Positions 8,495 through 20,884 of a stretch of 57,031 bases of DNA are shown piece by piece. Both the position numbers and the translations under genes were made by a program. Location of the stretch: NCBI GenBank assembly GCA_017503545.1, contig JAFVSW010000001.1:1-57031 (forward strand), in the 5' to 3' direction. How positions within the stretch are numbered: position 1 is the first letter of the stretch; every line of letters begins with the position of its first letter. The notes below the pieces were generated by a model. That model ran no database searches. It was given only the letters and a program-made list of their open reading frames with translations, and was not told the DNA's origin. This stretch comes from Lentisphaeria bacterium (GTDB taxonomy: Bacteria > Verrucomicrobiota > Lentisphaeria > Victivallales > UBA1829).

Positions 8495-9097
8495 ATGCTG
8501 AATGATAACAGATTGACAGAAATTGATAATGTTCCTGACGAACAGATTTTTAAACTGCTGAAAACAAATAATTCAGAAATGTGGCAATATGTTTTTATGA
8601 GAGTCGTTGAACCGATTTGCCACGGAACAACAAAAAATGGAATCCCCTATCAAAAGATATTAAGCGATAAACTCCTGGAATCTGAAGATGTTTGGGGTGA
8701 ATTATATTATGAAATGATGGGAAGAAACAAACTGGATTTGTATAATCATTCCGGTTCTCTGGTACGCTGGATGCGGTACTATGTGATCAACTTTATTTTA
8801 GGTTTTTGCAAAAAAAATCCAAATCACGAGTCAGATGAATGCCTGGATCAACTCTATATAAGCAGAACAGATATTCATGACATTGCGGAAGTGAATGAAA
8901 CAAGTTTTGCAGAACTATGGAGAGAAAGTCCAATGAGAGCATACGTATTTTTATTAAAGAGCCAGGAAAGTTATTCTTCGGAAGAAATAAAAGATTGTCT
9001 GGGACTGACCAGCTCCAATAATGTAGATCAATATTACAGACGGGCAAAGCAGGATTTGAAAGATTTTATCAAAAAAAATTCAGGAGATGCACAATGA
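8495..9097 (+). CDS. ECF-type RNA polymerase sigma factor
   Basis: 200 residues. Residues ~60-115 (DVWGELYYEMMG, then SLVRWMRYYVINFILGF) read as sigma region 2: the acidic DVWGELY helix that grips core polymerase, followed by the -10 recognition helix. Residues ~155-195 (YSSEEIKDCLGLTSSNNVDQYYRRAKQDL) read as region 4, with a helix-turn-helix for the -35 element. Region 3 is absent, as in ECF sigma factors. The start follows an AGGAAAT ribosome binding site. The stop overlaps the next gene's start as ATGA (9094-9097), which couples it to an anti-sigma-like gene, the usual ECF arrangement. It probably controls the island. It is divergent, so the exact ECF group cannot be named. Confidence 0.75.
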   Translation: MLNDNRLTEIDNVPDEQIFKLLKTNNSEMWQYVFMRVVEPICHGTTKNGIPYQKILSDKLLESEDVWGELYYEMMGRNKLDLYNHSGSLVRWMRYYVINFILGFCKKNPNHESDECLDQLYISRTDIHDIAEVNETSFAELWRESPMRAYVFLLKSQESYSSEEIKDCLGLTSSNNVDQYYRRAKQDLKDFIKKNSGDAQ

Positions 9098-9750
9098 ATT
9101 GTCCGGATTCTGAAAAGATTTTGCAATTTGCGGCTCAGCCGCCTGTGGAAGCAGATGCAGAATTGGCAGCACATATTTACACATGCCATACCTGTCAGCA
9201 GACATTCAATCTTGCATTGGAAATGCTCGGTAACGATTATCAGCCGAACATGTTCGATTATTTGAAGGCACAAAATATCGTTGAAGCAACACTTGATACA
9301 AAAGATTATCTGCACGAGCTGATCGCGTGGTTCAAAGATAAACTGGATGCGGCTTCATCGCTGATGCTGTTTGCGGAAGAGCTACCGCTGCCTCATTCAC
9401 AAGGTGAATTTGCATGTGCAGCCGGAATGCCGCAGCAAATTACAAGCAGGAGAAATCCGGAAGTGCATTTTGCGTCAAAAGAATCCCGTTTATCGCCTCA
9501 TTATTGGGAAGCCGTTCTGCAATTACCAATGATCATGACAAAAACCAGCACACTGGAATTCCATGTTTATGATGGAAAAGAAAATTTGCTGCAGAATGGG
9601 ACTCTGAATTTCCGGGGCAAACAACTCCCGGTCAGAAACGGAAAAACCGTTTTGACAACACAAGATTTTCTGGAAAGCATGGAAGGCAAAGGGATCAGCT
9701 TTTGTTTTGCTGACAATATCGTCACGGAAGGAGACATCAGATTACAATGA
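9094..9750 (+). CDS. Anti-sigma-like protein with N-terminal zinc-finger (ZAS/zf-HC2) motif
   Basis: The first ~40 residues hold Cys3, then His27-x3-Cys31-x2-Cys34, the zinc-binding layout of ZAS anti-sigma factors. These hold their partner sigma inactive. Residues ~50-218 form an unfamiliar mixed domain with a beta-rich end, and no membrane helix is visible, so sensing would be cytoplasmic, unlike the common membrane-spanning anti-sigmas. It overlaps the sigma gene by ATGA and the protease gene at 9747 by ATGA, so the three are tightly coupled. One possibility is that the papain-like protease cuts this protein to release the sigma factor. That is inference. Confidence 0.65.
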   Translation: MNCPDSEKILQFAAQPPVEADAELAAHIYTCHTCQQTFNLALEMLGNDYQPNMFDYLKAQNIVEATLDTKDYLHELIAWFKDKLDAASSLMLFAEELPLPHSQGEFACAAGMPQQITSRRNPEVHFASKESRLSPHYWEAVLQLPMIMTKTSTLEFHVYDGKENLLQNGTLNFRGKQLPVRNGKTVLTTQDFLESMEGKGISFCFADNIVTEGDIRLQ

Positions 9751-11753
9751 AAACATTACCTTCACATTATACCATACCGGATTTTATACCTCAGGCAACC
9801 AACCAGGGGTCGCGCGGTACATGTACGGCATTCAGTACAACCAGTCTCCTTGAATATTATCTGGACTATAAACAAACCTTGAGTCAGCAGTATTTGTATG
9901 CCTGTTGCAAACTTGCCGATAACACAAACAAACCCGGCGCAGCATTGCAAAATGTACGTGCATGCGTCAAACAGTTTGGTGTCCTTCCGCGTGAGCAATG
10001 GCCGTATAACCAATACAACACGGGACAGGAAGCTCAAATTACAGTGGATCGGATCCGGGAATTCCAATCAATCCCGTTGACTGATATTAAATTTCATCAA
10101 CTTTATACGACTTCCAACATTGACGAATACAAATATATCCTGACCGGATATAATGGACATGCTGCAATGCCGATCGTTATAGACTGTCAATTGTATTCCG
10201 ATATGAATATACAAAATGATTGGCTTGACATGCCTGCCCCCTGGGCTTCTCCGAGCGGGCGTCATGCCATGCTGATTTATGGTTATCATAATGCGGACCA
10301 CATTCCCGGCGGCGGTTATTTTCTGGTTCAGAACAGCTGGGGAAAAGATTTGACGAACAACAATACAGGATTGTTAAAAATCCCGTACGAATATATTGCA
10401 AAAAATGTATATGAAGCATTTACCATATTGAAACAAACAAATGATGCTGATAAAAAGGAAAATACAGCGATGCAAAAATTTACATCCATTGCCAGGGAAC
10501 CGATGAAAGATGCGCTTTCCCAAGTGTATGAAATTTCAGAAGGCGATTCCATTATTGTGGATGATGCGGGAAATGCACGGCTTAATACTCCGCAAAACTA
10601 TAATGATTTTGTCAGAAACGGTAACAGTTTCTGGCCCACAATGTCAAAAGAATTGCAGGAACAGCTGAGTATCAATACCCAACATGCCCGCCAATTCGGA
10701 GCTGCGCTTGATATCAAAATCAAAGATAATCTCGGCACTGTGATCCCGGATATCAATCTGCCCGGCTGGGTGTATTTTGTCCCTGACATGTTTAATCTCA
10801 AGTTTAAGAAATATAGAGAACTGAGCTTTAATAACGATGAGTTTTACAACTGCCTCAGTGATTGCGGAGCGATTCCCCGGTTGGAAACGTTGCGGACAAA
10901 CGATGCAAATGCAATAAAATCAGCAAACTTTTTCCGGGCTTACGAATTGTCCAACGGCTCTATTGTTTTCCGCTTTATGGCATTCTTCATTACACCGGTC
11001 AATTTTTCCAACAATCTTGGGGAACAGCAGGTACTCCCGGCGAACAGTACAGTCTATGAAAACATCATGACATATTTTAAGAAATGGGAACGGAGCAATG
11101 GTTTGAGAAAACCAAATTGTAATTGTTTTATTCTGGCAGCACAGCGCGGCTGGGATAATGTAACACCGTTTTCTCTCCATGATAATGTTCAAATTCTGTG
11201 TCATCTGGATGAAAATAATATCTGGGAAGTCCGCCATCAATCGCTGAACAATTACAGACGGGTTTACCGTGAATTCATTTATTCACTTTATCCTGAAAGT
11301 TTTGACAATTTGTGTCAACGGGTGGAAGATTTCATACAGGCAAACAAATGGTCTTTCTCCGGCAACATTACGACAAAAAAACTTTCTAAAAATTTGAATC
11401 GTCCGGAAGACATGATCGAAAGATGTTGCGATCAGCTGCAAAAGACCAATCGTTATATCAACTATTGGGCAGGAACCGGCACAGAAAAAGAAAAAGCAAT
11501 CAAATTGCGTACCCCGGAAGATAAGAGTACAAAATTGGTTCGTTTTTTCAAAACGGAATCCGTGATTGCGAAACATTTGAAATTCATTTTGCTTGCCGTT
11601 ATTGCAGCAATCGGGGTCCAATTGAGAACCTGGCTGCTTCCGACTGAAACACAGGCAAAATTAGGTGCTATACCTTCATTCATCGGGCTTTTTGTGATAT
11701 GCTATCTGGCTGGATGTGTGAAGGGGTATTTGAACCGTAAATTAAACAAATAA
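9747..11753 (+). CDS. Papain-like (C1) cysteine protease with C-terminal membrane helices
   Basis: 668 residues. The N-terminal ~235 residues show the papain catalytic set in order: Gln20 and Cys26 (TNQGSRGTCTAFS), His173 (SGRHAMLIYGY) and Asn196 (VQNSWGKD). No signal peptide or long pro-region precedes it, which suggests a cytoplasmic enzyme. The middle (~240-600) is unrecognised. Two hydrophobic stretches near 611-628 and 642-660 would anchor the protein in the membrane by its C-terminus, with the protease facing the cytoplasm. It is translationally coupled to the anti-sigma-like gene. Placing a C1 protease next to ESCRT-like and caspase-like genes suggests a proteolytic cascade; substrates are unknown. 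Confidence 0.85.
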   Translation: MKTLPSHYTIPDFIPQATNQGSRGTCTAFSTTSLLEYYLDYKQTLSQQYLYACCKLADNTNKPGAALQNVRACVKQFGVLPREQWPYNQYNTGQEAQITVDRIREFQSIPLTDIKFHQLYTTSNIDEYKYILTGYNGHAAMPIVIDCQLYSDMNIQNDWLDMPAPWASPSGRHAMLIYGYHNADHIPGGGYFLVQNSWGKDLTNNNTGLLKIPYEYIAKNVYEAFTILKQTNDADKKENTAMQKFTSIAREPMKDALSQVYEISEGDSIIVDDAGNARLNTPQNYNDFVRNGNSFWPTMSKELQEQLSINTQHARQFGAALDIKIKDNLGTVIPDINLPGWVYFVPDMFNLKFKKYRELSFNNDEFYNCLSDCGAIPRLETLRTNDANAIKSANFFRAYELSNGSIVFRFMAFFITPVNFSNNLGEQQVLPANSTVYENIMTYFKKWERSNGLRKPNCNCFILAAQRGWDNVTPFSLHDNVQILCHLDENNIWEVRHQSLNNYRRVYREFIYSLYPESFDNLCQRVEDFIQANKWSFSGNITTKKLSKNLNRPEDMIERCCDQLQKTNRYINYWAGTGTEKEKAIKLRTPEDKSTKLVRFFKTESVIAKHLKFILLAVIAAIGVQLRTWLLPTETQAKLGAIPSFIGLFVICYLAGCVKGYLNRKLNK

Positions 11754-11776: not shown

Positions 11777-12340
11777 ATGTCAATCAACAATGTTCTTTCA
11801 GAAGTGGTTACCGCACTGGGGTTGAAAGATACCGAGGTGGAAACATTGAAAAAGAGCCGTGAGGGACTGGATGCTTCGATCAAAAACAATCAGGATAAAT
11901 TAAACCTGATGATCGATGAAATCCAGGCCTTGGAAGCGCAAATCAAAATCAAAAAGAAAAACTATGAAAACTGCTCAAAATTGACGCAAACCATCTTGGG
12001 GCGTGAGCTGAGAACCTTGCTGGGCGCTTACAAGAGAAAAGAAGAAGAAATCAATTTGATTGCAGACCGGATTGATAAAAACAGTTTACTGCACCATAAA
12101 TTGGGTATTCTTATCTTTTACGCAGAAAATCCGACAAAATCAGAAGAAATTGAAGATACATTGGTGGATCTTGATCTCGCCATGAAGGAAACAGAAAAAG
12201 AAAACAATTTGAGCGATAAACTGTCCAACACAACTTACAACAGCAACACAACAAACAGTGTTTCCGTTGACAACATGTACAACGAATTTGAAACCAAAAA
12301 AGACAACGATTTGGAAGCTGCCCTGGCAGATTTTGAATAA
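11777..12340 (+). CDS. Helical coiled-coil protein, possible ESCRT-III-like subunit A
   Basis: 187 residues, almost entirely helical by composition. Residues ~20-75 form a strong heptad-like helix (SIKNNQDKLNLMIDEIQAL) followed by basic helices up to ~115, then an acidic region (KSEEIEDTLVDLDLAMKETE), a Ser/Thr/Asn linker and the end DNDLEAALADFE. A basic hairpin, an acidic distal helix, a flexible linker and a short C-terminal Leu-rich motif is the layout of ESCRT-III proteins, and the last residues resemble an MIM1 peptide that binds MIT domains. Residue identity alone would not prove this; a generic coiled coil is the alternative. AAGGAG precedes the ATG. The next two genes are a better ESCRT-III-like match and a Vps4-like ATPase. 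Confidence 0.5.
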   Translation: MSINNVLSEVVTALGLKDTEVETLKKSREGLDASIKNNQDKLNLMIDEIQALEAQIKIKKKNYENCSKLTQTILGRELRTLLGAYKRKEEEINLIADRIDKNSLLHHKLGILIFYAENPTKSEEIEDTLVDLDLAMKETEKENNLSDKLSNTTYNSNTTNSVSVDNMYNEFETKKDNDLEAALADFE

Positions 12341-12371
12341 TCGACAAAAAAAATACACAAAGGAGAAATTT

Positions 12372-13037
12372 ATGATGTCATTATTAGAAGCGATCAAAAA
12401 ATTGTTTATGTCCGATAGAGAAATCAGACGAATGAAGGAACGCGAGAGAGCCCGTGCATTCAACACAGCAGAAAATGCGTTGGAATCTGTACAGTCAAAA
12501 ATTCGGGAACTCAAAAAAGCAAGAGATAAAGCGTGGGAAGAAGCAAGAAACTACTTGCGCGACGGACAAAAGGTAGCGGCTCAACAATGTCTCCAGACGG
12601 TTCAGCAGAATGAAATCAACATAGGCTATTTGGAACGTAAAGCGTGGGTATTCAGTCAGCAGATCACGAAAATGGAAATGTCAGATACGGATAATGATTT
12701 TTCCAATGCCTTGAAGGTCATCACTGCAACAGCCGAAATTGATCCGGATAAAATTGCTGATACTCTTGAAGATACCAAAGAAATACTGGATAGCCAGGCA
12801 GCCATTAACAAGATCTGGGACAAGGAATATGCAAAAGAAATGAACGGTCTTGAAAATTCGGATGCAATTCCCTCCATGGAAGAAATGATGAGTAATTTGG
12901 AAAAAGAAGTGATCGCCGATGTTTCCGGAGGAAAAATCTCTATTTCATCTTCTGACTCCAATCAAAACGCATCAATTCATGAAGAAATCGGAGCCGGTCG
13001 TCGTAAGCTGAAAGAAATGCTGGAAGACAAGAAATAA
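12372..13037 (+). CDS. ESCRT-III (Snf7/CHMP)-like protein B
   Basis: 221 residues. It begins MMSLLEAIKKLFM, like the amphipathic starts of CHMP proteins. Long basic helices follow (RRMKERERARAFNTAENAL). The stretch RDGQKVAAQQCLQTVQQNE (~residues 60-78) closely recalls the helix-2 segment of CHMP2 (NGQ-AAA pattern). Helices then run to an acidic part (SMEEMMSNLEKEV, ~170-182), a Ser-rich linker and the end RRKLKEMLEDKK, which could act as an MIT-binding tail. ESCRT-III subunits polymerise on membranes and are disassembled by Vps4. Bacterial PspA/Vipp1 share the fold but lack a Vps4 partner; here one lies 30 bases downstream. The start is the ATG at 12372 with AAAGGAGAAATTT before it; the longer frame from 12258 overlaps the previous gene. 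Confidence 0.6.
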   Translation: MMSLLEAIKKLFMSDREIRRMKERERARAFNTAENALESVQSKIRELKKARDKAWEEARNYLRDGQKVAAQQCLQTVQQNEINIGYLERKAWVFSQQITKMEMSDTDNDFSNALKVITATAEIDPDKIADTLEDTKEILDSQAAINKIWDKEYAKEMNGLENSDAIPSMEEMMSNLEKEVIADVSGGKISISSSDSNQNASIHEEIGAGRRKLKEMLEDKK

Positions 13038-13067
13038 TCAAACGATAAAGAAAGGCAGGTATAAAAT

Positions 13068-14270
13068 ATGAGCAGTTTTAATGCCGACAAAAAACGAGAG
13101 CATGAAAAAGCTGCGGAAAAAGCCTTGGCAAATAATGATTACGTCAAAGCTTTTTTCCACACAACACAAGCTGCTGAATTTACCTTCAACTTGGCAGAAC
13201 AGAGCGATGGGGAACTGGCGCGCGCCTATTTGAATGATGCGAATGAATTGATTGCAATCGCTGCTCAGTTGAAAGAAAAAGCTGCAGCTCAGCCGCCGAA
13301 AAAGAACCTGGTAGTCAATAGCAGAGATAAAGCAGATCCGGAAAAATCAGAAAATAAACAGTGGACTGTTACCGGCAAAAGCGATATCCGTCTGGATGAT
13401 GTAAAAGGTTTGGCGGAAGCCAAAGAAATCGTGAAAGATGCGCTGATCAATCCGGTAAATCATCCCGACATCTACAAAACGTTGAAAGTCCGTCCGGGTA
13501 CAGGGCTCATGCTTTTCGGACCTCCGGGAACCGGAAAGACAATGTTTGCAAAAGCAATTGCAAATGAAATGAATACAACATTCATGCATGTAAAATTAAA
13601 TGAACTGAAAAGCAAGTACGTCGGGGAAAGCGAAGCTAATATTGCCAACATGTTCAAAGAAGCAAGATCACACGAAAAATGCGTCCTGTTTCTGGACGAA
13701 TGTGAATCCCTTCTCCGCAAACGCGGCAATCAAAAAGTCAACATGGTGGAACAGTTCCTGGTCGAACTGGACGGCTTCAATCCTGACGGAAAATCCCAGC
13801 TGTTCGTTCTTCTGGCAACCAACCGCCCGTGGATGATCGACAGTGCCATTACCCGAAGCGGCCGTATCAGTGCGGCAGTTTATGTCGATTTGCCCTGTAC
13901 GGAAGCCCGTGAACAGATCATCCGCTCTGCACTGCAGGATGTGCCGCTGGCGGACGACGTCTCCATTGAAAAACTGGTTAAACTGACCGAAGGTTTCAGC
14001 GGTGCGGAATTGAGCCACAAAGAAAACGGCGGTGGCGTATGTGACGAAGCAAGAAAATTTGCAGCCCGCAGATGGATCGAACGTCGTGCTGGATTGGATA
14101 AAAACAGTGAAGAATACTCCAAGGTGGAACCTGTCACCTGGGCAGATTTTGAACAGGCTTTGAAATCCGTTATTCCGACCTCCGTCCGTGACGCGGAAAT
14201 CATTGCGAAGAACAAAAAATTCAAAGATAATTCCGGTCAGGTGGATGATTCCTCTGATGGAGATGAATGA
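13068..14270 (+). CDS. Vps4-like AAA ATPase with N-terminal MIT-like domain
   Basis: 400 residues. Residues ~8-72 form a three-helix MIT-like bundle (HEKAAEKALANNDYVKAFFH), the domain by which Vps4 binds ESCRT-III tails. The AAA core follows: Walker A GPPGTGKT (151-158), pore-loop KSKYVGESE with Tyr184 where Vps4 has Trp, Walker B FLDECES (Asp210, Glu211), sensor-1 Asn252 in LLATNRPWMIDSAITRSGR, and arginine candidates 263 and 266. The C-terminal VTWADFEQALKSVIPTSVRD matches the Vps4-type ending (F-x2-AL-S-x-PT). The meiotic/Vps4 clade is a better fit than FtsH or proteasomal ATPases, because no protease or transmembrane part is present. It would disassemble the ESCRT-like proteins encoded just upstream. 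AGGCAGGTATAAAAT precedes the ATG. Confidence 0.8.
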   Translation: MSSFNADKKREHEKAAEKALANNDYVKAFFHTTQAAEFTFNLAEQSDGELARAYLNDANELIAIAAQLKEKAAAQPPKKNLVVNSRDKADPEKSENKQWTVTGKSDIRLDDVKGLAEAKEIVKDALINPVNHPDIYKTLKVRPGTGLMLFGPPGTGKTMFAKAIANEMNTTFMHVKLNELKSKYVGESEANIANMFKEARSHEKCVLFLDECESLLRKRGNQKVNMVEQFLVELDGFNPDGKSQLFVLLATNRPWMIDSAITRSGRISAAVYVDLPCTEAREQIIRSALQDVPLADDVSIEKLVKLTEGFSGAELSHKENGGGVCDEARKFAARRWIERRAGLDKNSEEYSKVEPVTWADFEQALKSVIPTSVRDAEIIAKNKKFKDNSGQVDDSSDGDE

Positions 14271-14319: not shown

Positions 14320-14668
14320 ATGAGCAGCTTTGCTGCAAATTAAAAAACGGCACACGAAAAATGGACTGATACCGGAAAAACAGTTATATCTGAATTGTGT
14401 TTTATATTGATTTGCCCTGTATTGAGCCACATAGAAAGCGACGGCGGTGTTTGCGGCGAAGCAAGAAAATTTGCAGCCCGCTGATGGATCGGACGTCGTG
14501 CTGGATTGAAAAAACAGCGAAAAAGATACCCGGGTGAAATCTTTCACCCGGGCAAATTTTGAACAGACATTGAAATCAGTTTCCGTAACACTGAAATCAT
14601 TGCAAAAAAAAGTTCAAAAAAGATTCCGGGCAGATGGATGCGTCCTATGATACCGGAGAAAAATAATA
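14320..14668 (+). pseudogene. Decayed, internally deleted duplicate of the Vps4-like ATPase gene
   Basis: The stretch repeats pieces of the intact gene in the same order: the start (ATGAGCAG), the linker around TGGACTG-TACCGG, the segment GATTTGCCCTGTA, and a longer 3' part with GAAGCAAGAAAATTTGCAGC followed by TGATGGATCG, where an Arg codon has become TGA. The upstream ribosome-binding region is also partly repeated. The Walker A and B segments are gone, so no ATPase can be made. It explains the 420-base gap between the ATPase and the next gene. Confidence 0.85.
14529..14552. repeat. 11-bp perfect inverted repeat within the ATPase remnant
   Basis: CCCGGGTGAAA and TTTCACCCGGG are separated by TC. 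The intact gene does not carry this palindrome at the matching place, so it arose after duplication. No T-run follows. It might slow transcription or act as a hairpin before the next gene, but this is not shown. Confidence 0.6.
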
Positions 14669-14693: not shown

Positions 14694-15632
14694 ATGATGA
14701 AAGTTTTTGGTAAAAAATCGGTAAGCACACTGGGATCACTTCTCAGCATTGCGTTATTCAAAAGGAACATACAGTTTCTCGGCAGTTTATGCTTGTTCAT
14801 CTATGCATTTTACCTGGTCTGGATTTGTCTGGGACCGGAAAAAAACTTTCCGAATGAAGAAAGACAGCAAATTGCCAATAATGCGATCCAGAACATGGTG
14901 GAAGATATCAGAAACAAAAGGCAGCATTTACGTAAAGTTGCAGTATTGCATTTCAGTAATGACCCGACGGATTATGTGACAGATACGCTCCGTGACACCC
15001 TGAATGGTACCGGAATCCTCAATCTCTCTGATATCAGTATTTCTGAAAAAATCTCAAAAAAATTACATTTGCGCTGCAAAGAATATTTCACCACGGATGA
15101 GGCTCTGGATGCAATCAGCGGTCTTGATGTACAAGGGGTACTTTGGGGTAAAGTGGATTTATTTGAAACGGAGGAAAACGGAGCCGTTATAAAAGGGGAA
15201 TGGTATTTGGATGAAAAAGGATCCGGAAAAAGAATTGCCTCCGGAGTTTTTTATAAAAACACCGCAGAAGAAGCAAAAAAAGCGGAAGAATTGCGCCAAC
15301 AGGAATTGAAAGAACTGGAAAGTAAGACAGAAAATACAGAAGACGGTAAACATCCGTGGTATGTCCGCTTTCTTGTTTTTTTATTGTTGACGCTGCTGCT
15401 TCCGATTTTTACCATAGCATTTATCCGTGCAATGGTCGCAAAACGCTCCAATCTGATCAACGCATTTGTTTTAGGGACCTATACGTTTATTGATGGGATT
15501 CTGGCATTCTTCATGATTGGCGGAGTATTTCAATCCGGCACAAAGTTGATGTGGTTTTGTCTGGCAACTTTTACGGCATTCTGCTATAACGTATGTTTAA
15601 TGAATTTTGCATTGAAACTGGAAAAGGAATAA
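14694..15632 (+). CDS. Membrane protein A of a paralogous pair (soluble domain flanked by membrane helices)
   Basis: 312 residues: one membrane helix near 27-47 (SLCLFIYAFYLVWICLG), a soluble domain (~50-220), then three helices (~222-245, 255-280, 285-307). The soluble domain has SNDPTDYVTDTLRDTLNGTG, later DVQGVLWGKVDLFE, and GEWYLDEKGSGKRIASG. This order (short-lived factor with a G-x-L-xG strand and a closing strand) recalls CsgG/LpoB-like folds, which I rate only as possible. The protein is clearly homologous to the product of 19952-20884. AGGGAG lies about 12 bases before ATGATG; either Met may be used. It may anchor or signal for the caspase-like proteins of the island. Confidence 0.75.
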   Translation: MMKVFGKKSVSTLGSLLSIALFKRNIQFLGSLCLFIYAFYLVWICLGPEKNFPNEERQQIANNAIQNMVEDIRNKRQHLRKVAVLHFSNDPTDYVTDTLRDTLNGTGILNLSDISISEKISKKLHLRCKEYFTTDEALDAISGLDVQGVLWGKVDLFETEENGAVIKGEWYLDEKGSGKRIASGVFYKNTAEEAKKAEELRQQELKELESKTENTEDGKHPWYVRFLVFLLLTLLLPIFTIAFIRAMVAKRSNLINAFVLGTYTFIDGILAFFMIGGVFQSGTKLMWFCLATFTAFCYNVCLMNFALKLEKE

Positions 15633-15668: not shown

Positions 15669-17555
15669 ATGTTTTGGGATAAAACAAAAAAAATTGCAGA
15701 TGGCAGCATCATCGCCAGAAAAATTACGGGTAAAGAGGTTGCTGACAGCGAAAAACAATATCTTTATAATATTTTTTCAAAAGATAATACGGTTGTCTCC
15801 TGCAATATATCAGTGGCAGACCTCAAAAAAGTTGATGGTGTAAATTTCTACATTTCGCCTTACAGTTATACCTATACATGCCAGGCAGATTTTACACATC
15901 CTGATTGCAGTGGAAAACTTGCAGTTTCCGCCGTATTGGAATACAAAATCATACCGACCGCTCTCGGTTTCGGGAATTGGCTGCTGACGAACCGGATTGA
16001 ATCATTGACAGCAGAAGCCCTCAACAACCTGTTCCAACAGGAAGAATACGGTATTGTCAATTATTTGCAAAAAATCATTACGGGCCATAATTTATCATTA
16101 CTCATGCGCAAAAAAGAGGAGGCCGTTAATAAATCCTGTTTCGGACAGGATCCCAGTCTGCAACCGTGGCTTCACATTGTAAATATCCATTGGAACAATA
16201 TGGAAATTCTGCCGACAGCCGCACAAAAACAAATAGAAAAATTCAACAAAGAATCAGAAGAACGGAATCTTGAACTTGAAAGAATGAATCTGCATTTGGC
16301 TCATGAAGCCAATATCAATGCAATAGATGAAGCAAGAAAAAAAATGCTGCATCAAAATAAATTGGATGCGATTGAACGGGAAAGTGCCATCAAACTTGCT
16401 GAGGCACAAGCAAAATTGGAAGCCAAAAAAACGGAATTTGAACAATACCGTCTTGATAATGAAAAGAAATTGCTGACTCTTGATGAACAGCTCAAAAAAG
16501 AAAATCTTGATATTCTTTCCGCGGCATCCGAAAGCCAAAAAGAAGAAATGCGCCGGAGACTTGAGAATTTACAGCAGGAAAAATGCAATTTGGAACAACA
16601 GGGTAAAATTCTTCAGGCAGAATTGGAAGCAGCACAACAGAATTTTGAAACATCAAGACAGGTTGCAGAAAGCAATATACAGATATCAAAGATCAATTTG
16701 GATAAAATGCGTATTGAATTGGATACTGCCTTGACGCAAAAGCAGGAAGCAGAAAAAAAATTGAATTTACTGGATAATGATGAAAAAATACGCCAGGCAG
16801 AATTGGAACGTATTGAAATCCAGAAAAAATATGATGAAGAACTCTTTCAGGCAAAACTGAAAGCGATTACGGCGGGGAGTGTTATTGATCAAACATTTCT
16901 TGCTGCGCAGCAAAAAATCAAAGAAGAAAATGAGCAGATAATTGATAGAATCGTCAATTATCATGAAGAAAACAAAAGGGTTATTTGTTATGATATCACT
17001 CAAAACTTCCTTGTTGATATCGTCCGCAAACAACAACTTTCCTGTGCAGTAACTCTGAGTAAATGCACTGCCGTTCAAAAGATCCGGGAAATAAACAGCC
17101 GGGATCTGAGTTTGAAAATCAATATCAAAACATCGGAGATCAAAGTCGGCGACAGTATAAAGTTTACGTTCAAAAGTGAACGTTCCGGTTATCTGACTGT
17201 TTTATGTTTCGGGTCCTCCTGTCTTCCGGACGCGGGCAATGCAGAAGACGGCAAAATAATAGTAATGGAACCAAATATTATTGATGGACACAAAAGAGTG
17301 GAAGCCGGCGAGACCTATGCCCTGCCCGGCAGTAAATTTCTTCCGGATTTGCAAGGGATCGCACAAGTCGGTCCCACGGGAACAGAACGTCTACTTGCGA
17401 TTGTAACAGACACCCCGCTTTTGAATATTCCGGAGGGATTGCAGGATTTTGATACCGTCAGTCCGGTGGAACTTCACGCGCTGGCGAAACGACTTGAAAA
17501 AATACCGGCTGAATGTTGGGCAGGCGGTTATTTATCCTATCATGTTACAGATTGA
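15669..17555 (+). CDS. Long coiled-coil protein with N-terminal domain shared with the second caspase and C-terminal DUF4384-like domain
   Basis: 628 residues in three parts. Residues ~15-190 hold a mixed domain with DGVNFYISPYSY, GFGNWLLTN, QQEEYGIVNYLQK and WLHIVNIHWNNMEILP; the same blocks recur in the C-terminal part of the caspase-like protein at 21214. A small beta-domain followed by a long coiled coil recalls SPFH/band-7 membrane scaffolds, though this is a guess. Residues ~185-430 form the coiled coil. Residues ~478-590 (VGDSIKFTFKSERSGYLTVL; GETYALPGSKF) fit DUF4384, a domain often fused to bacterial caspases. No membrane helix is seen. AGAAGGAG precedes the ATG. The next gene is a caspase-like protease, which makes a partner role plausible. 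Confidence 0.7.
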   Translation: MFWDKTKKIADGSIIARKITGKEVADSEKQYLYNIFSKDNTVVSCNISVADLKKVDGVNFYISPYSYTYTCQADFTHPDCSGKLAVSAVLEYKIIPTALGFGNWLLTNRIESLTAEALNNLFQQEEYGIVNYLQKIITGHNLSLLMRKKEEAVNKSCFGQDPSLQPWLHIVNIHWNNMEILPTAAQKQIEKFNKESEERNLELERMNLHLAHEANINAIDEARKKMLHQNKLDAIERESAIKLAEAQAKLEAKKTEFEQYRLDNEKKLLTLDEQLKKENLDILSAASESQKEEMRRRLENLQQEKCNLEQQGKILQAELEAAQQNFETSRQVAESNIQISKINLDKMRIELDTALTQKQEAEKKLNLLDNDEKIRQAELERIEIQKKYDEELFQAKLKAITAGSVIDQTFLAAQQKIKEENEQIIDRIVNYHEENKRVICYDITQNFLVDIVRKQQLSCAVTLSKCTAVQKIREINSRDLSLKINIKTSEIKVGDSIKFTFKSERSGYLTVLCFGSSCLPDAGNAEDGKIIVMEPNIIDGHKRVEAGETYALPGSKFLPDLQGIAQVGPTGTERLLAIVTDTPLLNIPEGLQDFDTVSPVELHALAKRLEKIPAECWAGGYLSYHVTD

Positions 17556-17590: not shown

Positions 17591-19144
17591 ATGGCACGGT
17601 ACGGCTTATTTATCGGGATCAATAATTATGACTGTGGAATCACACCATTGTCCTGCGCCCGTCAGGATGCGCAGGAAATGTATCGAACATTTCTGGATAA
17701 CGGTTACGCTGCAGATTTGATGTATGATCATGAAGTCAATACAGATGCCATCGTCAAAAAACTGGATCGTTTAACCTTGACCCCCGGAGATATTTTTGTA
17801 TTCTTTTTCTCGGGACATGGATGTGACGATCACGGTGAACATTATCTTCTGATGCAAAATGCCCGCAGTCAATATCTGGAATCCCATATCGGAATGATCC
17901 CCATGCGATTGATCAAAACGGCAACGGATAAACCGGGAGTACATCGCCTTTTTATTCTTGATTGCTGCCAGAATGATTTGTTGAAAGGCGGTAAAGGCAT
18001 TGCTGTCACCCCGGTTTCCAAAGATGTTTCCATGGGAAATTTACTGAAACGGGATCCGCAAAAACTTGATATTATCCCGCCGCTGATCGCCACCTCCTGC
18101 AGTCCGGGTGAAAAATCATTTGAAAATGAAATATCCGGACACAGTTATTATACAGAAGCAATCATAAATTCGCTGAAAGATAATTCCATTCAGAATTTTG
18201 AAGGACTGCGGAAAAGCATATCGGCAAAAATGCTTGCGCTGAGAAACAAAGATTTACTGCCGCAGCGTCAGACTCCCCAATGGAATGGTGATATTGACAG
18301 CTGGAACAATATTCCGTTCTTCCCGCGCTGGAATGTGTCTGACCGGGAAATACACCCCCTGCCCCAGCCGACGCAACCGGAACAAGCGGCAATACCGGCA
18401 GACGTCGCTGTACAGCCGCATATACCGGAAAAAACGCAGATTATTCCATCGGTCCCCCAACCCGCTGCCGCAGAAATAAAAGATTCCGGACACAAAAAAT
18501 TATTTACGGCAACCAATACGGGGCTTACGGTCGGTAAAAACGGAGATAAAATCCAAGCGGAACTTTTCAATAATGCAATAAAAAATGGACTGCAATTTAA
18601 CAATGATAAAAACTGTCTGCTTGGATGTGCCAATAAAGTGATTACAGATATTGTCATTCCGGATGGAGTAACCAGCATTGAAAATGATGCTTTTATGGAA
18701 TGTACCCAATTAACCGCGGTCACTCTTCCGGACAGTCTGGAACGAATCGGTGCCAATGCCTTCCGAGAATGTAATCAACTGGTAAAAATGATTATTCCCG
18801 GACAGGTAAAAGAAATCGGACCGAAAGCATTTTTTGATTGTATCAATTTGGCAACGGCAGTTTTATCGACAAATCTATTGAAAATTGCAGATTGCGCCTT
18901 TTGGGGGTGCAGTAATTTGATGCACATAGATCTGCCGGACAATGTTGAAATTTTGGGCGAACGTGCGTTTTACAATTGTAAACGTTTGGTTATGATCAGA
19001 ATTCCAGACACCGTAACCTCCGTTGGAGAAAATATTTTTCTGAATTGTTCCAGTCTGACCAGTATTTCCGTACCATTGCATTTGGAAAAACAAACGGCGA
19101 CATGGGGGCTGCCTTCCTATTGTGTAATAAATGTCCGTGACTGA
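17591..19144 (+). CDS. Caspase-like (peptidase C14) protease with BspA-type leucine-rich repeats
   Basis: 517 residues. The N-terminal ~235 residues form a caspase/metacaspase domain: a GLFIGINNY first strand, catalytic His76 in FFSGHG, and catalytic Cys126 in FILDCCQN. A later ATSCSPGEKSFE loop completes the pattern. A Pro-rich linker (~255-300) joins to five or six BspA-type leucine-rich repeats at ~350-500 (units such as IPDGVTSIENDAFMECTQLT), usually a protein-binding surface. No signal peptide or membrane helix is present, so it is expected in the cytoplasm. The repeats may detect a trigger or recruit a substrate. CTAAAGGA precedes the ATG. It probably works with the DUF4384 protein 35 bases upstream. 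Orthocaspase-type cleavage after basic residues is common but cannot be read here. Confidence 0.88.
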   Translation: MARYGLFIGINNYDCGITPLSCARQDAQEMYRTFLDNGYAADLMYDHEVNTDAIVKKLDRLTLTPGDIFVFFFSGHGCDDHGEHYLLMQNARSQYLESHIGMIPMRLIKTATDKPGVHRLFILDCCQNDLLKGGKGIAVTPVSKDVSMGNLLKRDPQKLDIIPPLIATSCSPGEKSFENEISGHSYYTEAIINSLKDNSIQNFEGLRKSISAKMLALRNKDLLPQRQTPQWNGDIDSWNNIPFFPRWNVSDREIHPLPQPTQPEQAAIPADVAVQPHIPEKTQIIPSVPQPAAAEIKDSGHKKLFTATNTGLTVGKNGDKIQAELFNNAIKNGLQFNNDKNCLLGCANKVITDIVIPDGVTSIENDAFMECTQLTAVTLPDSLERIGANAFRECNQLVKMIIPGQVKEIGPKAFFDCINLATAVLSTNLLKIADCAFWGCSNLMHIDLPDNVEILGERAFYNCKRLVMIRIPDTVTSVGENIFLNCSSLTSISVPLHLEKQTATWGLPSYCVINVRD

Positions 19145-19951: not shown

Positions 19952-20884
19952 ATGGCAAATTCAACGTTAGGATCATATTTCAAATATCTATTGGGGATAA
20001 CGCTCCTCAAGAATATATTCCCGATTATTGTTGTTTTTTCTTGCATTTCCTATGTGTTTTATTTTGCCTGGATGGGATTGGGTCCGCAAAAACCTGTATT
20101 GAATCAAAGCCGTCAACAAATCTCACATGCGGCAATACAGCAAATGCTGCAGGAAATCAAGGAGCATCGCGGCAATATCCGTCAGGTTCTGTTTATACAC
20201 TTTGCAAACGATCCGACCGATTATTTTTCCGACACATTGCGTAATGAATTAAACAGCACCGGGATCTTGAATCTGGAAACGCCGTCCTTCTTTGAAAGAG
20301 CAAGAAAAATGCTGAATCTGCAAATTAACGGAGTACAGAATACCCGTGACGCACTCTCTTATGCAAAAGGTTCCGATGTACAAGGTGTCCTGTGGGGAAA
20401 AATCGACACATTTGAATCTGTTCCTGAAGGAGTCATCTTGAAGGGCAAATGGTATCTGGTTGATTTAAAAAGCAAAAAGATTTTATATTCCGGCACAATC
20501 AAACAGGATACAACAACGCAAAAAAAGAAAATGATTTTGAAAACAGTTGAAAAACTGAAACGGACCAATCAGAATAATTCGATACAGCAATTTGCTGCGA
20601 CGATCCCCTGGTATCTCCGTTTTTTATTTGCACTGCTGCTCATACTTCTGCTTCCTATCGTAACAATCTCTTTTATCCGCACAATGGTGGCAAAGACATC
20701 AAACAGGATAAATGCGTTTGTCCTTGGAACCTATACGTTGATAGGAGCAATTATCATATTCTTCATGATCGGCGGCAGTTTTTCCTCTGCCATACAAGTC
20801 ATCAGTTTTCTGATCTGTCTGGGAATTGCCTTTGTATATAATGTACAAATCATGGTATTGGCCCTGCATTTGGAAAAGAAATAA
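19952..20884 (+). CDS. Membrane protein B, paralogue of the 14694-15632 product
   Basis: 310 residues with the same plan as its paralogue: a membrane helix near 26-46 (VVFSCISYVFYFAWMGLG), a soluble domain, and three C-terminal helices (from ~220). Shared blocks are FANDPTDYFSDTLRNELN, GSDVQGVLWGKIDTFE, GKWYLVDLKSKKILYSG and SNRINAFVLGTYTLIG. It starts after AAAGGATAAAAAA. Each paralogue opens a block that ends in a caspase-like gene, so they may have matching, specialised jobs. The soluble domain could lie on either side of the membrane; a positive-inside reading weakly favours the periplasm. Confidence 0.75.
   Translation: MANSTLGSYFKYLLGITLLKNIFPIIVVFSCISYVFYFAWMGLGPQKPVLNQSRQQISHAAIQQMLQEIKEHRGNIRQVLFIHFANDPTDYFSDTLRNELNSTGILNLETPSFFERARKMLNLQINGVQNTRDALSYAKGSDVQGVLWGKIDTFESVPEGVILKGKWYLVDLKSKKILYSGTIKQDTTTQKKKMILKTVEKLKRTNQNNSIQQFAATIPWYLRFLFALLLILLLPIVTISFIRTMVAKTSNRINAFVLGTYTLIGAIIIFFMIGGSFSSAIQVISFLICLGIAFVYNVQIMVLALHLEKK

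Follow-up and report, generated by a model that had tools for sequence, protein, structure and literature searches.

A gut-type Lentisphaeria bacterium encodes a Snf7-type ESCRT-III protein (gene B) directly upstream of a Vps4-like AAA ATPase (gene C), a pair restricted to archaea and eukaryotes according to published work. From the content of the locus we infer that these genes, with a coiled-coil partner (gene A) and nearby protease and sigma-factor genes, probably encode a bacterial ESCRT-III/Vps4-like machine for ATP-driven membrane remodelling which is wired to regulated proteolysis. The DNA analysed (the window; 57,031 nucleotides) is part of a 4.06 Mb bacterial genome assembly.

Layout of the locus

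Genes A, B and C are three successive intact open reading frames on one strand, separated by short gaps and each preceded by a ribosome-binding-like sequence of its own (Table 1). The first-pass annotation had described three adjoining genes here, which is borne out, and the motifs it had picked out (SKYVGESE, ATNRPWMIDSAI, MMSLLEAIKKLF and DGQKVAAQQ) are all present. Gene B is best taken to start at the ATG at 12372 (or 12375), with the Met that follows 'aaggagaaattt'; a GTG at 12258 was dismissed as an upstream over-extension.

Upstream of gene A, the putative anti-sigma gene overlaps both of its neighbours, and a Pfam search with its product gave no match. The papain-family protease has a C-terminal hydrophobic stretch and also lies upstream of A in relatives. 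Downstream, the predicted membrane protein recurs at 11 of 28 loci examined, that of Hydrogenedentota included. The product of 19952-20884 resembles it by eye, the two genes flanking those for the DUF4384 protein and the caspase, and they are probably paralogues. The DUF4384 coiled-coil protein has homologues at four related loci; it was considered as a counterpart of the SPFH proteins of relatives and rejected (hhalign probability 0.5%). The caspase-fold protein matches the NCBIfam model caspase_w_EACC1 below that model's cut-off. Directly after the ATPase gene, positions 14421-14651 hold a degraded partial copy of its 3' end (77% identity to ATPase nucleotides 942-1191 over 250 columns), which is a decayed tandem duplication.

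Table 1. Features of the ESCRT-III/Vps4-like locus, in window coordinates.
Feature	Position	Strand	Basis or remark
ECF-like sigma factor	8495..9097	+	weak NCBIfam sigma matches; kept in relatives
Putative anti-sigma-like Cys-rich protein	9094..9750	+	position, CxxC region, recurrence
Papain-family (C1) cysteine protease	9747..11753	+	Pfam PF00112, E=2.5e-11
Gene A, coiled-coil protein, 187 aa	11777..12340	+	
Gene B, Snf7-type ESCRT-III protein, 221 aa	12372..13037	+	
Gene C, Vps4-like AAA ATPase, 400 aa	13068..14270	+	
MIT-like three-helix bundle, gene C residues 1-74	13068..13289	+	predicted structure
Predicted membrane protein	14694..15632	+	recurrent partner
Long coiled-coil protein, C-terminal DUF4384	15669..17555	+	PF14326, E=3e-10
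Caspase-fold protease fused to BspA-type leucine-rich repeats	17591..19144	+	PF00656, E=5e-18; PF13306, E=3e-46

Gene B is a Snf7-type ESCRT-III protein

Gene B had been called CHMP-like, and profile searches, predicted topology and structural neighbours uphold this: it is a Snf7-type ESCRT-III protein. The window protein matches Pfam Snf7 (PF03357) with E=4.7e-5 and 23.6 bits, below the cut-off of 27.3 bits; both B paralogues of one genome of the same family exceed that cut-off (28.6 and 31.1 bits). A family profile of 17 B sequences, searched against all PDB chains, matched yeast SNF7 (3e-10), a Loki Vps20/32/60-like protein (3.6e-4), Heimdall ESCRT-IIIB (1.6e-3) and CHMP3 (0.024). No PspA or Vipp1 chain appeared at E<=1 in this search, and the PspA_IM30 Pfam profile gave no match to B.

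The AlphaFold2 model of B (mean pLDDT 76.5) has the ESCRT-III topology, in which a short N-terminal helix is followed by a long helix 1-2 hairpin (residues 15-63 and 67-103), shorter helices (107-121, 135-156 and 169-184) and a separate terminal helix (196-219). Its best Foldseek neighbours come mainly from the ESCRT-III superfamily and comprise Asgard ESCRT-IIIB, Vipp1, CdvB, PspA, Loki CHMP4-7, CHMP1B/IST1 and Snf7. Probabilities are mostly 0.7-1.0; the E-values are weak (0.019 at best), which is no surprise for a helical model.

Along its length B comprises a hydrophobic N-terminal helix, a basic helical hairpin, an acidic C-terminal half and the terminal helix, and all 17 of 17 homologues have a net basic N-half and a net acidic C-half. 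Many homologues start MGxxxLFxS or similar, and many end, after a variable linker, in a motif like 'I..G(R/Q)..(L/V)(K/R).LL..K', which is a candidate docking helix. One Kiritimatiellae subclade and a small number of others depart from this motif, so the docking model set out below is not universal as written.

Gene A belongs to a family of conserved coiled-coil proteins of about 190 amino acids, encoded mostly close to B; at Kiritimatiellae-type loci an A-like region lies inside proteins with a Cys-rich, zinc-finger-like N-terminus. The first-pass annotation had read A as a second CHMP-like protein. That reading was rejected, since hhalign of A against B gives no support for it (probability 0.7%; homology undetectable), and profile and Pfam searches with A gave generic coiled-coil matches only, none of them to ESCRT-III. 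A is therefore described as a conserved coiled-coil partner of B, its CHMP-likeness not being demonstrable.

Gene C is a Vps4-like ATPase

The ATPase motifs of gene C are intact, with Walker A GPPGTGKT, Walker B FLDE, the aromatic pore loop SKYVGESE and the sensor ATN. Its affiliation was examined in a maximum likelihood AAA tree rooted on FtsH, with references verified against PDB sequences. An initial tree that included very divergent AAA proteins suffered from long-branch distortion and was redone without the divergent rows. In the revised tree the bacterial ESCRT-linked AAA domains form one clade of their own (99/99), which joins Vps4, CdvC, katanin, spastin and ATAD1 as sister (100/96), outside Cdc48/PAN and not nested. 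The ATPase thus groups with Vps4, katanin and spastin and not with FtsH, in line with the first-pass assignment, and its AAA core falls outside the reference Vps4/CdvC clade. Placing the bacterial clade with Cdc48/PAN instead is not rejected by the AU test (p-AU 0.18), and its deep position is soft. The separate clade and its sister position justify the term 'Vps4-like' and not 'member of the Vps4/CdvC clade'.

These relationships bear on origin. Horizontal transfer had been raised for this locus, and because the bacterial ATPases form a deep clade of their own and are not nested, a recent transfer from archaea is unsupported. A bolder proposal, which we regard as rather unlikely, is that ESCRT-III and its Vps4-like ATPase form an ancient lineage proper to bacteria, one that is sister to the archaeal-eukaryotic lineage and not borrowed from it. 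If it is true, Snf7-type polymers and the AAA ATPases that disassemble them were paired earlier, or are paired more widely, than the archaeal-origin scenario holds.

At the N-terminus, AlphaFold2 predicts a bundle of three helices (residues 2-21, 25-44 and 48-74; pLDDT about 95 over most of it, dropping at the bundle end), followed by a disordered linker and then the AAA domain. Sequence searches of Pfam and the PDB gave no match between this domain and MIT, and Pfam MIT run across 17 genomes gave none at the ATPase gene. Elsewhere in those genomes the Pfam MIT matches are many, short, repeated within one frame and TPR-like. Aligned by hhalign to a Vps4 MIT profile, the N-domain is colinear end to end over 71 columns with a probability of only 7%. 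This alignment outscored 59 of 59 shuffles and the reversed profile, with a reference set of four Vps4 MIT sequences of which three are provisional. The sequence evidence that the N-domain is MIT is only suggestive; of the earlier MIT claim, the confident three-helix bundle stands, while the Pfam and PDB sequence searches did not recognise it.

Pfam Vps4_C (PF09336) matches the C-terminal half of the ATPase weakly in 9 of the 17 genomes, above the cut-off in one, and in eight genomes this is the best Vps4_C match genome-wide; the matching region also resembles Cdc48 D2. The case for the 'Vps4-type end' described previously is weaker than stated, and this end overlaps a Cdc48 D2 motif. Among NCBIfam models CDC48 scores highest for the ATPase, and Foldseek ranks p97 first. 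In a genome of the same family the ATPase (locus L014, 10962-13982, minus strand) is built of two AAA domains with an M48-like HExxH region at the C-terminus; its N-domain and second AAA domain are the counterparts of the window ATPase.

Distribution and gene neighbourhoods

Of 388 genomes sampled from the phylum, 17 (about 4%) have gene B and 17 have the ATPase N-domain, with 16 genomes common to both. In a set of 36 non-redundant loci, the ATPase lies on the strand of B within 3.6 kb at 30 of the 30 loci that have it, and at the remaining six the contig ends no more than 2.6 kb downstream. Shared genomes and adjacency link the ATPase genetically to the ESCRT-III gene, and their co-occurrence is more than chance would produce. 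A Pfam Snf7 search of 289 genomes of the phylum gave matches in 12, and in 11 of these the match is a B-type gene with an AAA gene nearby. The other match (genome G295) lies where the DNA is GC-rich and frames overlap, has no ATPase nearby, and was treated as spurious. PspA_IM30 had no match in 16 of the 17 genomes that carry the module.

A scan of assembled contigs with a 7-row alignment subset, in which distant phyla are under-sampled, found 27 loci from independent studies in Lentisphaerae, Kiritimatiellae, Verrucomicrobia and one Hydrogenedentota. Within the window's own family the module is present in two of roughly 36 sampled genomes, a patchiness that points to loss or exchange inside this bacterial group. 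Judged by the ATPase, the closest relative is 'Lentisphaeria bacterium RGIG5525' from sheep colon, of the same order (L029, the same as locus L084). The two ATPase genes diverge by 0.18, 0.10 and 0.51 at codon positions 1, 2 and 3; that the third position diverges most fits purifying selection. Four caspase-like genes surround the module of this relative (L029, 1-3393 and 11982-15999).

The window and its close relatives have the gene order sigma factor, Cys-rich protein, papain protease, A, B, ATPase, membrane protein, DUF4384 coiled coil and leucine-rich-repeat caspase. Kiritimatiellae-type loci have Ser/Thr kinases, FHA with zinc ribbon, SPFH with zinc ribbon, and M48 and trypsin-like proteases. 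The distant Hydrogenedentota locus keeps A, B, ATPase and membrane protein; upstream of these it has kinase-TPR genes, and downstream a CHAT protease. Across lineages the neighbours are caspase/CHAT, papain, trypsin and M48 proteases, kinases, FHA, SPFH and sigma genes. PADLOC gave only generic AAA, kinase and caspase matches and no known defence system.

Proposed function and alternative readings

In the model that we favour, B would be anchored by its hydrophobic N-terminus to the inner face of the cytoplasmic membrane and would polymerise there via the ESCRT-III hairpin. Its C-terminal helix may dock on the N-terminal three-helix domain of the gene C product, a hexamer that would pull B subunits through its pore at the expense of ATP, so that the filament is remodelled or dismantled. 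Gene A and the membrane protein could be structural or adaptor partners that organise the assembly. From the caspase and papain-like proteases and the sigma/anti-sigma pair that flank the core, we suggest a role for the assembly in sensing or repairing envelope damage and in gating regulated proteolysis; the proteases, kinases and sigma factors of the different lineages may form a variable input or output layer for such damage.

The same neighbours invite another reading, in which the locus is an island of biological conflict or programmed death, with the caspase and papain proteases (and kinases in relatives) as effectors and the ESCRT-III-like protein and ATPase as a regulatory scaffold or switch instead of a scission machine. 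The array of caspase-fold, CHAT, C1, trypsin and M48 proteases and Ser/Thr kinases around the core, which changes with lineage, speaks for this, as do the patchy presence in the family and the PADLOC caspase and generic AAA matches. However, it is the effector genes that vary and B and the ATPase that stay constant, no known defence system was matched as a whole, and the Snf7-type anchor, charge polarity and widely conserved tail of B are hard to explain without a membrane assembly. We consider a conflict island possible but doubtful.

Two further readings concern B itself. Since PspA and ESCRT-III belong to one superfamily, since Vipp1 and PspA are among the Foldseek neighbours of B, and since a sigma-factor gene suggests a stress response, the locus could be an envelope stress module of the PspA/Vipp1 type beside an unrelated AAA gene. 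This is disfavoured, and in our view highly improbable, given the negative PspA_IM30 and PDB profile results for B, the lack of PspA from nearly all module genomes and an ATPase that accompanies B at every testable locus. It is less credible still that the Snf7 match is an artefact of coiled-coil composition, with B being a helical protein of unrelated descent that works for a Cdc48-like chaperone. The sub-threshold Pfam score of the single window sequence, the weak Foldseek E-values and the CDC48 model that fits the ATPase best would be accounted for in this way, but the family profile ranks SNF7 and ESCRT-III chains at the top of the PDB and not the numerous coiled coils there, and Snf7 matches sit in a B-type gene near an ATPase in nearly every genome that has one.

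If the locus is the remodelling machine proposed here, bacteria provide a small ESCRT-like system suited to reconstitution, and one in which ESCRT-III is linked to caspase-fold proteases and kinases. The presence of the pair in Lentisphaerae, Kiritimatiellae, other Verrucomicrobiota and one Hydrogenedentota genome makes the question of ESCRT origin testable from the bacterial side.

Comparison with known systems

The premise of the first-pass annotation that bacterial ESCRT-III relatives lack a Vps4 partner is not fully right: Ravi et al. note such bacterial associations (e.g. ACB74714.1), namely some operons of PspA/Snf7 with AAA, and Vps4-like ATPases with snf7 displaced (Ravi et al., 2024; PMC11237479). 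In contrast to the latter cases, the Snf7-type B is kept here. Verrucomicrobia and Lentisphaerae are not named in the main text of that paper, and we found no report of this module in Verrucomicrobiota, Lentisphaerae or Kiritimatiellae in the mainly open-access journal literature covered. PspA and Vipp1, which are also bacterial, have a fold superfamily in common with B, but PspA profiles do not match B and the module genomes are mostly without PspA.

Among eukaryotic Snf7/CHMP proteins, SNF7 is closest to the B profile, and the two have in common an MGxxLFxS-like start, a basic N-half, an acidic C-half and a terminal helix; the MGxxxLFxS-type start of B is comparable with the Snf7 N-terminal anchor. 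The spacing in the tail of B differs from that of standard MIM1. Gene C resembles eukaryotic Vps4 in its three-helix N-domain and differs from it in that MIT is unrecognised by sequence and Vps4_C is matched in part.

In archaeal CdvB/CdvC and the wider archaeal set (Makarova et al., 2024; PMC10936438), as here, an ESCRT-III gene adjoins an AAA ATPase with an N-terminal helical domain. No CdvA, winged-helix or ESCRT-I/II genes were recognised among the proteins scanned. Unlike the archaeal systems, this one has a bacterial host, an ATPase clade outside the reference Vps4/CdvC set, additional proteases and kinases, and the coiled-coil partner A. Archaeal ESCRT loci with SPFH and zinc ribbon and FHA-named systems have been reported (Makarova et al., 2024), and the SPFH-zinc ribbon, FHA-zinc ribbon and Ser/Thr kinase genes of several Kiritimatiellae and Lentisphaerae loci (L032, L036, L063, L066 and similar) are reminiscent of some of them, FHA and SPFH plus zinc-ribbon proteins being found in both.
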